Below, piece by piece: positions 33,624 to 43,041 of a stretch of DNA of 64,000 bases; positions within the stretch are counted from its first letter, which is position 1, and each line of letters starts with the position of its first letter. A program made the translations under genes and the position numbers. The notes below the pieces were generated by a model. It searched no databases, had not been told where the DNA came from, and saw only the letters and a program-made list of their open reading frames with translations. This DNA comes from Sphingomonadaceae bacterium. Lineage in GTDB: Bacteria; Pseudomonadota; Alphaproteobacteria; Sphingomonadales; Sphingomonadaceae. The stretch lies in NCBI GenBank assembly GCA_947477745.1, contig CANJUF010000002.1, positions 1 through 64,000 on the forward strand, in the 5' to 3' direction.

Positions 33624-34559
33624 ATGATTCGCATCGATCATCGAGAACCGTTCCCGGCCGCCATGCACGGCGCGATTCTCGCGCTGGGCAATTTCGATGG
33701 ATTCCATCGCGGCCATCAGGCGGTCGTCAGCGAAGCCGTGCAATGGGCGAAGGCTGAAGGCCGCCCGGCGATTGTCGCGACCTTCGATCCGCATCCGGTC
33801 CGCCATTTCTGGCCCGACACCCCCCCGTTCCGGCTGACCACGCTCGACCAGCGGCAGGAACTGTTCGCGGGCGCCGGAGCCGACGCCATGCTCGTGTTTC
33901 ATTTCGACGATTCGATCGCCGGGATGCTTGCCGAACGCTGGGTGGACGAGTGGCTCTGCGGCAAGTTCCACGTCGCCGGGCTCGTCACCGGCGAGGACTT
34001 CGTGTTCGGCAAGGGCCGCTCGGGCAATTCGGCAAGCCTGCGCGAGCTTGGTGCGCGGTTCGGCTTTGGCACCCGCGCGGTGGCGCCGGTCGACGATGCG
34101 CAAGGCCCGGTCTCGTCGAGCCGCATCCGCGAGGCATTGCAGGCGGGCGACTGCGACGAGGCCGCGCGCCTGCTCACCCGGCCGTTCGCAATCAGGGGGA
34201 CGGTACAGCACGGCGACAAGGTGGGCCGCACCATCGGCTTTCCCACCGCCAACATCGACCTTGGAACTTACCTGCGCCCGCGCTTCGGCATCTATGCCGT
34301 CACCGGAAGGCTGGCAGATGGGCGCCTGCTTCACGGTGCAGCCAACATCGGCATTCGTCCCACCTTCGATCCGCCCAAGGAACTGCTCGAACCGCACTTC
34401 TTCGACTTTTCCGAAGACCTCTACGGCCAGGAGATCGAGATAGCCTTCCACCGCTTCCTGCGGCCCGAGGAAAAGTTCGGCAGCCTCGATGCCTTGGTCG
34501 GGCAGATGGAGCAGGATTGCGATCAGGCGCGCGAAGTCCTAAGCGCCCTCACGCCATGA
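33624..34559 (+). CDS. ribF: Bifunctional riboflavin kinase/FAD synthetase
   Basis: A 311-residue enzyme that converts riboflavin to FMN and then FAD. N-terminal adenylyltransferase motif LALGNFDGFHRGHQAVV; C-terminal flavokinase motif GRTIGFPTANIDLGTYLRP and GAANIGIRPTF. Twelve bases follow folA, and the TGA overlaps the ileS ATG (ATGA), the usual ribF-ileS-lspA order. Confidence 0.95.
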   Translation: MIRIDHREPFPAAMHGAILALGNFDGFHRGHQAVVSEAVQWAKAEGRPAIVATFDPHPVRHFWPDTPPFRLTTLDQRQELFAGAGADAMLVFHFDDSIAGMLAERWVDEWLCGKFHVAGLVTGEDFVFGKGRSGNSASLRELGARFGFGTRAVAPVDDAQGPVSSSRIREALQAGDCDEAARLLTRPFAIRGTVQHGDKVGRTIGFPTANIDLGTYLRPRFGIYAVTGRLADGRLLHGAANIGIRPTFDPPKELLEPHFFDFSEDLYGQEIEIAFHRFLRPEEKFGSLDALVGQMEQDCDQAREVLSALTP

Positions 34560-37500
34560 GCGACCAGCGCGACTATAGAGACACCGTCTTCCTGCCGAAG
34601 ACCGATTTCCCCATGAAGGCCGGCCTTCCGCAGAAGGAACCGCAGATCCTTGCGCGCTGGCAGGAGATGGACCTTTACCGCCGCCTTCGCGATGCGCGCG
34701 CGGGGCGCGAAAAGTTCATCCTCCACGATGGCCCGCCTTATGCCAATGGCGACATGCACATTGGCCATGCGCTCAACCATATCCTCAAGGATATGGTGGT
34801 GCGCACGCGCTCACTTATGGGATACGATGCGCCTTACGTTCCCGGCTGGGATTGCCACGGCCTGCCGATCGAATGGAAGGTCGAGGAAGAATACCGCAAG
34901 AAGAAGCTGGATAAGGATGCGGTCGATCCGGTTGAGTTCCGGGCCGAGTGCCGCGCCTATGCCCAGAAATGGGTCGATGTGCAGCGCGAGCAATTGAAGC
35001 GGCTCGGCATCAATGGCGACTGGGACAATCCCTACCTGACGATGCATTTCGATGCCGAGGCGACCATCGTTGCCGAGCTGATGAAATTTGCCGAGAGCGG
35101 CCAATTGTATCGCGGCGCCAAGCCGGTGATGTGGTCGCCGGTGGAGAAGACCGCGCTGGCCGAAGCCGAGGTCGAATACGAGGATATTACCTCAACTCAG
35201 ATCGACGTGGCGTTTGAGATCGTTTCGTCACCGGTCAAGGAACTGGAAGGCGCATACGCCGTCATATGGACGACGACGCCGTGGACGATCCCGACCAATC
35301 AGGCGTTGGCCTATGGGGCGGATGTTGAGTATTTGCTGGTCGAATTGAAGGGCCTCGCACGCGATGGTGCGCAAATGTCGCCACACATCGGCAAACGAGT
35401 GTTGGTCGCTGAAGCACTTTTTTCCGATTTCTCGAAGCGCATTGGAAATATTGAGTTCGACGATGGCAATGCCCTCCGTCGGAGATTCAAAGGCTCCGAC
35501 CTCGCCGGAACCATGGTCCGTCACCCGATGGCCGCCGCTTTTCCTGACAGCCCGTTCTACACCCGCCTGCGCCCGATGCTCGACGGCTCCGCCTTCGTCA
35601 CTACCGAAAGCGGCACCGGCCTCGTCCACATGGCCCCCGACCACGGCGAGGACGATTTCGCGCTGTGCAAGGCGCACCGCATCGACCCGGTCTTCGCGGT
35701 CGGGCCGGACGGCGTCTACCGCGACGACTGGCCGTGGCTCGGCGCGCACGACGAGCGCCGCCGCGCGGTCATCAATCCCAATTTCAACGCACCCGACGGG
35801 CCGATCTGCACAGACCTCAAGTCCGCTGGAGCTTTGCTCAGCGCGTCCGCAGATTATCGCCACAGTTATCCACATAGCTGGCGCTCGAAGAAGAAGGTGA
35901 TCTTCCGCTGCACGCCGCAGTGGTTCGTGCCGATGGACAAGGAACTCCCCTCCCGCTTGCGGGAGGGGCCGGGGGTGGGTGCGTCCGAAGACATCCCCCT
36001 TTGCCAGCATGAAATTGCCGCGCGGGCCGAATCCAGCCCACCCCTAACCCCTCCCGCAAGCGGGAGGGGAACTACCCTGCGCGAAACCGCGCTCAAGGCC
36101 ATCGCCGAAACCCGCTGGGTGCCTGAAAAGGGCCGCAACCGCATCGGCTCGATGGTCGAGGGGAGGCCAGACTGGGTGCTCTCCCGCCAGCGCGCCTGGG
36201 GCGTGCCGATCACGCTGTTCGTGAACCGCAAGTCCGGGCAATACCTGTGCGATCCTGCGGTCAACGCGCGGATCGTCACGGCAATCCGCGAGCAGGGAGT
36301 CGATGCCTGGTCCGACGCGCGTGCGCAGGAATATCTCGGGCCGGATTACAAGGCCGAGGATTACGAGCGCATCGCCGACATTCTCGACGTCTGGTTCGAT
36401 TCGGGCTCGACCCATGCCTTTGTACTCGAAAGCGGCAAGTGGCCCGACCTGATGCGGCCCGAAGGCTATACCGGCCCGATCGCCGATCTCTATCTCGAAG
36501 GCTCCGACCAGCATCGCGGCTGGTTCCAGTCATCGCTGCTCGAATCATGCGCGACGCGTGGGCGCGCGCCTTACAAGGCGGTGCTGACTCACGGTTTCAC
36601 CATGGACGCTTCGGGCAAGAAGATGTCGAAGAGCCTGGGCAACACGGTCGATCCGATAAAGGTGATGGAGACCAACGGGGCCGACATCATCCGGCTGTGG
36701 GCGCTGTCGGTCGATTACACCGAGGATCACCGCATCGGCGACGAGATCCTCAAGGGCGTGGCCGACCAGTACCGCAAGATCCGCAACACCTTCCGCTACC
36801 TGCTGGGCGCGCTCGAAGGTTTTGGCGAAAGCGAGCGGGTGGCGGTGGCCGACATGCCCGAGCTTGAGCGCTATGTGCTGGCGCTGCTTGCCGGGCTGGA
36901 TGCGCGGCTGCGACAGGCCGCGCTCGATTACGATTTCAACACTTACACGCGCGAGATCGCGGATTTCTGCAACGAGGATCTGTCGGCGTTCTTCTTCGAT
37001 GTGCGCAAGGACAGCCTCTATTGCGATGCGCCTTCGGACCCGAAACGCCGCGCTTATCGCACGGTGCTCGACACGCTGTTCCATGCCCTGGTGCGCTATG
37101 CCGCGCCGGTGCTGGTGTTCACCGCCGAGGAAGTGTGGGGCACGCGCTATCCGGACAGCGGCAGCGTGCATCTGCTGGAATGGCGGGAACTTGAGCGAAT
37201 GACGCTGGTCGAAGATGCGGCGTCGTTCGACAACCCTAAACTTATGCAAGGCGTCGCTGAGCTGCATTGGAATGCAGTCCGGAGACTTCGGGACAGCGTT
37301 TTGGCTGAGATTGAACCACTTCGCCGAGATAAGGTCGTTAGGTCCGGCTTGGAAGCTGAGGTATCGATACCTTTTGGGTCATTGGACGTTACTTCCGAGC
37401 AATTGACTGAGTGGTTTATTGTTGCGTCAGTTCAGAATTCAGATCGGCCTAGTGTCACCCGCACCACTCACCACAAATGCGGGCGCTGCTGGCGGCACCT

Positions 37501-37576
37501 GCCCGAAGTGACCGAGGACGGCGCGCTGTGTTCACGCTGCGATCAGGTCGTCGCCGCCATGGACGCCCAGGCATGA
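34556..37576 (+). CDS. ileS: Isoleucyl-tRNA synthetase with an in-frame repeat insertion
   Basis: A 1006-residue class I synthetase. HIGH at residues 68-71 (ANGDMHIGHALNH), KMSKS in SGKKMSKSLGNTVDP, editing domain WTTTPWTIPTNQALAYGADV, and C-terminal zinc ligands CGRCWRH and CSRCD. About 42 residues (464-505, from LPSRLREGPGVGAS to PPASGRG) are extra: they are the translation of a palindromic repeat placed between PQWFVPMDK and TLRETALKAI. Removing them gives a normal 964-residue enzyme. Two stretches (about 35340-35470 and 37220-37440) have lower third-position GC than the rest. It overlaps ribF and lspA by ATGA. Confidence 0.95.
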   Translation: MSDQRDYRDTVFLPKTDFPMKAGLPQKEPQILARWQEMDLYRRLRDARAGREKFILHDGPPYANGDMHIGHALNHILKDMVVRTRSLMGYDAPYVPGWDCHGLPIEWKVEEEYRKKKLDKDAVDPVEFRAECRAYAQKWVDVQREQLKRLGINGDWDNPYLTMHFDAEATIVAELMKFAESGQLYRGAKPVMWSPVEKTALAEAEVEYEDITSTQIDVAFEIVSSPVKELEGAYAVIWTTTPWTIPTNQALAYGADVEYLLVELKGLARDGAQMSPHIGKRVLVAEALFSDFSKRIGNIEFDDGNALRRRFKGSDLAGTMVRHPMAAAFPDSPFYTRLRPMLDGSAFVTTESGTGLVHMAPDHGEDDFALCKAHRIDPVFAVGPDGVYRDDWPWLGAHDERRRAVINPNFNAPDGPICTDLKSAGALLSASADYRHSYPHSWRSKKKVIFRCTPQWFVPMDKELPSRLREGPGVGASEDIPLCQHEIAARAESSPPLTPPASGRGTTLRETALKAIAETRWVPEKGRNRIGSMVEGRPDWVLSRQRAWGVPITLFVNRKSGQYLCDPAVNARIVTAIREQGVDAWSDARAQEYLGPDYKAEDYERIADILDVWFDSGSTHAFVLESGKWPDLMRPEGYTGPIADLYLEGSDQHRGWFQSSLLESCATRGRAPYKAVLTHGFTMDASGKKMSKSLGNTVDPIKVMETNGADIIRLWALSVDYTEDHRIGDEILKGVADQYRKIRNTFRYLLGALEGFGESERVAVADMPELERYVLALLAGLDARLRQAALDYDFNTYTREIADFCNEDLSAFFFDVRKDSLYCDAPSDPKRRAYRTVLDTLFHALVRYAAPVLVFTAEEVWGTRYPDSGSVHLLEWRELERMTLVEDAASFDNPKLMQGVAELHWNAVRRLRDSVLAEIEPLRRDKVVRSGLEAEVSIPFGSLDVTSEQLTEWFIVASVQNSDRPSVTRTTHHKCGRCWRHLPEVTEDGALCSRCDQVVAAMDAQA
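35945..36070. repeat. Palindromic repeat inserted in frame within ileS
   Basis: About 126 bp with two inverted arms of about 35 bp. Each arm holds a perfect small hairpin: CCCCTCCCGC, a TT (or AA) centre, GCGGGAGGGG (35947-35968 and 36048-36069). Outside these, a GGGGTGGG block also pairs. Between the arms is about 60 bp of unrelated sequence. The length is a multiple of three and no stop is created, so ileS stays open. Confidence 0.88.
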
Positions 37577-42899: not shown

Positions 42900-43041
42900 T
42901 CGCGATTGCCACCTTCCCTTTGGGAGGGGTTGACGGGCCGTTCGCGTGGCGCAATGGCGTTGCGCGCGATACATACCGGATGAAAGAGCGAAATTGCGCC
43001 GGTTTCGGCGCGCGAACGAAGACAAAGAGAAGGGTTGATCC

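Follow-up and report, generated by a model that had tools for sequence, protein, structure and literature searches.

In-frame palindromic repeat doublet in ileS of a Sphingomonadaceae bacterium, at a loop carrying several repeat classes in Sphingomonadales

The window, by which we mean the entire 64,000-nucleotide stretch of DNA that was analyzed, contains an ileS gene whose reading frame is interrupted, but not closed, by a GC-rich palindromic repeat. The relevant features are as follows, with the evidence for each in parentheses:

33624-34559: open reading frame that we take to be ribF; its stop overlaps the ileS start
34556..37576, plus strand: ileS, isoleucyl-tRNA synthetase (IleRS), 1006 aa (open reading frame; Pfam tRNA-synt_1 and Anticodon_1; IleRS chains in PDB)
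34757..34768, plus strand: intact catalytic motif, presumably HIGH (protein sequence)
35945..36070, plus strand: palindromic doublet in frame (REPIN-like), codons 464-505 (sequence, copy count, fold, stem test)
35947..35979, plus strand: left REP unit, CCCCTCCCGCTTGCGGGAGGGGCCGGGGGTGGG
35980..36036, plus strand: spacer separating the two REP units (genome BLAST matches to the insert)
36037..36069, minus strand: right REP unit, an inverted copy of the left unit
36620..36634, plus strand: intact catalytic motif, presumably KMSKS (protein sequence)

The insert is 126 bp long and free of stops in frame, and has therefore become exactly 42 extra residues (464-505) of the ileS product. Its two 33-base units are inverted around a 57-base spacer, the arrangement of two short inverted palindromes and a spacer that characterizes a REPIN/REP doublet. 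These observations bear out the initial annotation, which had described a palindromic repeat inserted in frame at this position. The predicted RNA fold of the insert has an energy of -90.9 kcal/mol (z -6.1) that is equaled by 0 of 200 shuffled sequences, and the longest stem, with one mismatch permitted, comprises 23 pairs compared with at most 9 in 20 shuffles. An Rfam search returned 13 weak matches, all under the gathering score and 11 of them to microRNA hairpin models, which we read as chance hairpin likeness. Elsewhere in the gene, positions 35241-35480 and 37161-37520 have a GC content of about 0.55, compared with 0.58-0.70 in the other GC windows, and the first of these stretches falls in the variable CP1 region.

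The repeat is dispersed in its own genome, as is typical of REPIN/REP elements. The unit's exact 20-mer is present in 19 copies (9 forward and 10 reverse) on 10 contigs of the 3.03 Mb genome (control: 0), in agreement with the earlier view of the insert as a GC-rich repeat of intergenic type. An 18-base pattern searched with up to two mismatches yields 42 matches per strand (control: 1 per strand), every site being scored on both strands because the pattern is palindromic. BLAST matches of the insert outside the ileS locus (E < 0.01) fall on the REP units; some extend slightly into the spacer, the longest such overrun being about 17 bases. When the insert region of IleRS is compared with the own genome, there is one strong match, and the two further weak matches are copies of the repeat. 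A degenerate relative had also been proposed near position 42920; the string CTTTGGGAGGGG is indeed present, yet BLAST of the insert listed no match there up to an E value of 10, and the proposed relative is not supported. The assembly is a draft of 63 contigs, a state that could in principle point to an assembly or annotation artefact, but the open reading frame is intact and the same kind of insert is found at the same loop in other assemblies, including isolates by title, which leaves this explanation with practically no probability.

Genomic repeat sites, single and degenerate units included, were examined at 22 places. Three of them, in ileS and in the two genes listed below, are in frame within genes with Pfam domains on either side, three more (L056, L057 and L070) have a Pfam domain on one side only, and the remaining 16 are not placed within genes by a scan of 20 reading frames, which covers 18 of the 26 candidates having at least 30 residues on both sides. 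The names of the two additional genes are assigned from Pfam domain content:

G000:C1:152433-152515: repeat doublet in the linker between ABC_tran and ABC_tran_CTD of an ABC-F (uup-type) gene (L066; Pfam)
G000:C4:122512-122637: repeat in a DNA polymerase III alpha (dnaE2-type) gene, between PHP and DNA_pol3_alpha (L069; Pfam)

In the protein, the insert site aligns between residues 418 and 419 of the Staphylococcus aureus IleRS, and the alignment to the solved IleRS breaks at this site. We take the break to be a domain boundary, with the site located just after the stretch in which the chain leaves the presumed CP1 editing domain and re-enters the catalytic core. An AlphaFold model based on 57 sequences has a mean pLDDT of 74.4 with values below 50 for residues 471-503; other stretches are low too, and low confidence alone is no proof of disorder, but the prediction fits a disordered loop that is probably flexible. 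The model is likewise compatible with the tolerated surface loop that the initial annotation had envisaged.

Relatives of ileS were collected as the best 80 named loci plus 30 loci from genus genomes (the own locus included), and all 110 are open across the loop. Within the genus, 54 of 59 genomes, again counting the own genome, have an ileS match. The closest relative found, Novosphingobium sp. Chol11 (L074), lacks the insert, as the alignment of relatives had been expected to reveal, and has 6 residues between MD and TLR compared with 45 in the own IleRS. Among the loci, the stretch between the TPQWF and RNRI motifs is 41 to 87 residues long, with palindromic DNA making up many of the longer versions. 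The segment is thus not conserved as protein while similar repeats do occur elsewhere, and the original reading, in which a surface loop tolerates a palindrome of intergenic type, is supported.

Of 97 unique Sphingomonadales IleRS proteins, a set from which the truncated row L161 was left out, 20 have palindromic repeats at the insert site, termed loop B. Using motifs and stems, we labeled the repeat classes F1 (6 carriers), F1b (1), F2 (5), F4 (2), F5 (3), F6 (2) and F7 (1), with F1 and F1b probably related. The longest loop B stem has 12-27 pairs in 19 of the carriers versus at most 9 in the other loop B rows, and the one remaining carrier, L088, contains just one REP, with a stem of 8. Palindrome-bearing inserts have matches elsewhere in the 786 kb of collected loci, in which, rather than in whole genomes, the dispersed copies of F4, F6, F7 and F1b were sought; native loops have none or just a small number of short ones. 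No match elsewhere in the 786 kb was obtained for L110, which is a weak F2 member. Mapped on the gene tree, the presence of loop B repeats needs at least 17 changes between insert and no insert, or 20 with class labels, on a tree that was built without the variable loops by a quick search, with 36 of 94 inner branches open, and from which gain and loss are not distinguishable by these counts. The sisters of several carriers possess another native loop with an RWENEGG-like stretch that is missing in the carriers, and some events therefore look like replacement instead of plain insertion. Loop B of non-carriers (e.g. L102, L104 and L119 versus L115, L124 and L125) itself falls into several unlike native classes that are scattered over the tree and may be decayed old insertions.

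The explanation that we favor, and consider highly probable, is that ileS received a REPIN-like doublet from the repeat family of its own genome and that near-neutral inserts of this kind survive in a permissive loop. It draws directly on the repeat nature of the insert, its frame, its absence from the nearest relative found, the low model confidence and the recurrence of other classes; that the inserts are near-neutral and persist where the protein tolerates them is the most likely reading. Alternatively, the insert could be useful, either through an mRNA hairpin that delays translation where two domains meet or through a peptide that alters IleRS activity or editing, with selection keeping it in place. 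The strong hairpin predicted for the insert in the window, the long stems in 19 carriers of differing sequence and the position at the break of the alignment, which we assume to be a domain boundary, would all agree with such a role. However, 77 of the 97 IleRS proteins have no loop B palindrome, carriers adjoin non-carriers on the tree and the spacers between the arms are mostly unlike within one class, and we regard usefulness as quite improbable.

Repeats also occur in two further IleRS loops, A near residues 321-328 and C near residues 877-884, with 7 rows each, and at least one insert in loop A, B or C is present in 28 of the 97 proteins. Loop A rows L081, L083 and L174 are assigned by motif, their longest stems not exceeding those of shuffles, and in loop C row L126 the stem merely equals shuffles. 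A motif-list search of 98 loci found 66 repeat clusters, 33 in ileS and 33 outside. Among the latter, those inspected one at a time are 11 clusters just upstream of ileS, of which 8 are intergenic after the ribF stop and 3 (L125, L162 and L172) are unplaceable, and a loose motif match inside a conserved open reading frame of L127 that is probably due to chance. At the level of the class, 88 of 105 genomes matched at an E value of 1e-8, and 40 of these 88, chiefly genomes having one matched piece, were fetched. Loop B could be parsed in 37 of the 40, where it is usually minimal: 34 loops are short, one (L260) is middle-sized and two are palindromic inserts, in L244 (G067, from the window's own family) and L245 (G066, from another family of the class). 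The insert of L245 is long and forms an almost perfect palindrome.

Copy numbers of the repeat classes were determined in whole genomes with both strands added. For the F1 20-mer with at most one mismatch, 12 genomes gave between 1 and 97 matches each (control: 0), self-complementary variants counting twice; one carrier has 5 matches. Matches to the F5 arm number 80, 39 and 39 in the three F5 carriers (control: 0) and zero in 2 of 12 genomes. F2, counted as a 36-position pattern with at most three mismatches, is matched 2-7 times in each of its five carriers and not at all in the window's genome. Two genomes run against the favored explanation, in that they are rich in a class that is missing at their loop B: G172, with 97 F1 matches, has no insert there, and G027, with 178 F5 arm matches, carries another class.

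A target-site preference, whereby the mobilizing enzyme favors the DNA sequence or structure at the ileS site and recurrence would tell where repeats arrive instead of what IleRS can accommodate, would be compatible with the favored explanation. The F1 inserts of five species (L154, L076, L087 from the isolate Novosphingobium hassiacum, L126 and L105) share their first nucleotide position, with GAAC, GATC or CAAC preceding TCCCC, suggesting a preference beyond tolerance, and CGTC-type inserts in loop A start directly after TTC (L122, L088), CTT (L100, L174) or TTT (L083). Classes with different ends nevertheless enter loop B at slightly different codons, and what the sites in other genes have in common is an interdomain position, making a target preference possible but rather doubtful.

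Recurrence at one loop might also reflect few insertions followed by horizontal exchange of ileS loop segments among species. L076 and L087, which are distant on the tree, share similar spacers, and the flanks of the own ileS and L076 are mutually best or tied best at 90%, compared with 77% for the gene, although L074 also reaches 90% for the own flanks. The observed value is equaled in 25 of 2000 permutations when only the left flank is considered, and in 80 of 2000 for 8+8 codons. With strict 30-codon flanks, however, same-class pairs have no clear excess (465 of 2000 permutations; 1154 of 2000 for the right side), and a third-position scan of distant pairs peaks away from loop B, within the variable part of CP1, with one scan window starting 41 codons upstream having two pairs above z 4. 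We therefore judge exchange unlikely. An apparent co-conversion, in which the insert would travel between species together with its flanks, was rejected as an artefact of 7 flank columns that lie inside the loop and are partly repeat arms; under strict flanks this signal is mostly gone and the left side stays weakly positive.

Other genes are hot spots as well. The uup-type linker has an F1-type peptide in 4 of 30 loci, the own locus included, and the dnaE2-type linker, parsed in 16 of 30 loci, is short in 8 and long in 8, the own locus being among the latter. The long dnaE2-type loops are of at least three kinds, some of them assigned from the peptide alone. A further inverted repeat, of the CTCACGCGAAGGCGCGAAGGCGCAAAGA type, is found in the dnaE2-type linker of L217, L219 and L222. 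For F5, the matches listed for two genomes form 42 clusters in 40 stretches, not counting the ileS copies, and 2 of these 42 sit within genes with Pfam domains on either side (uvrA and 2-oxoacid dehydrogenase E2); two additional candidate frames give no clear call. The elements in the uup-type, dnaE2-type, uvrA and 2-oxoacid dehydrogenase E2 genes all lie between Pfam domains. Insertions of repeats into genes look rare, which makes the recurrence in ileS striking.

The Y1 transposase (PF01797) has no match in the own genome, which is 98.69% complete, and the same search was positive in 5 of 14 control genomes; the cognate Y1 (RAYT) enzyme of a REPIN/REP doublet was thus not found there. PF01797 is present in 17 of the 59 genus genomes, including two of the three F5 carriers (G033, G049) and the F2 carrier G018, and has no match in 42, including the own genome and G036, which has 39 F5 arm matches. 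Mobility is therefore deduced from the distribution of the repeats, and we assume that they depend on a transposase, either one that acts in trans or one that the genome no longer has.

According to the favored explanation, a palindromic doublet that is mobile and belongs to the repeat family of this genome would have entered ileS after the CP1 exit, where its stop-free 126 bp would add 42 loop residues and leave the gene open and the catalytic motifs intact. Repeats would land in many places, and because in-frame copies in permissive loops would survive as near-neutral decoration, a handful of loops, namely three in IleRS and one each in the uup-type and dnaE2-type proteins, would be refilled time and again, mostly in independent events. 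The ileS loop can be seen as a natural landing pad, since other repeats have inserted there repeatedly in related bacteria. A broader proposal, that a few interdomain loops of core proteins, foremost the IleRS CP1 exit, are standing landing pads on which several unrelated classes converge and where the stable mRNA hairpin at a domain boundary is retained for pacing translation, strikes us as very improbable. Repeated in-frame landing of unlike mobile palindromes at a loop of an essential enzyme constitutes a natural insertion-tolerance experiment that maps permissive loops and provides examples of new protein segments derived from selfish DNA. It also allows the hypothesis of loop building by mobile repeats to be tested on a single gene throughout an entire order.

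REPINs, reportedly described by Bertels and Rainey in 2011, are said to be mobile doublets of two inverted REPs. The ileS insert resembles them in having two inverted REPs and differs in that no RAYT-type transposase was found in its own genome and its copy number is modest. Rickettsia palindromic elements, as the accessible portions of two sources describe them, are palindromic repeats in frame in protein genes (PMC3733652, PMC10969869). The parallel with these elements that the initial annotation had drawn holds for in-frame insertion inside protein genes and fails for the host, which is not Rickettsia; the comparison is by description, not sequence, and in the same portions no repeated insertion of several classes at one site is described for them. 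The closest precedent is the study of GTAG/CGTC REPs by Di Nocera et al. (2013; PMC3733652), whose accessible portion reports that these repeats are mostly intergenic and in some cases in frame within genes, among them tRNA synthetases of X. oryzae, E. litoralis and S. alaskensis, uvrA and dnaE2, with flexible linkers or loops proposed as tolerant places. The synthetase listed there may be ileS. The repeats described here are similar in being palindromic and in frame within tRNA synthetase, uvrA and dnaE2 genes, but the F1 unit, read by eye, has no unpaired GTAG or CGTC tag at its end and thus does not fit those super-families, whereas some loop A and C inserts of other species begin with CGTC. 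As far as that portion of the paper goes, different REPs occupy about the same site in recB alone, in two Xanthomonas, the other genes of that category having them at different sites; here, one ileS loop holds seven classes. Use of one loop by so many repeat classes was not found described in the literature searched, which excluded most subscription journals. In-frame REPs, those in Sphingomonadales tRNA synthetases included, and same-site insertion in Xanthomonas recB are therefore already known from the accessible portion of PMC3733652, and the present data extend this work to a single loop with seven classes, F1 and F1b being perhaps related, and to other genes with shared hot spots.
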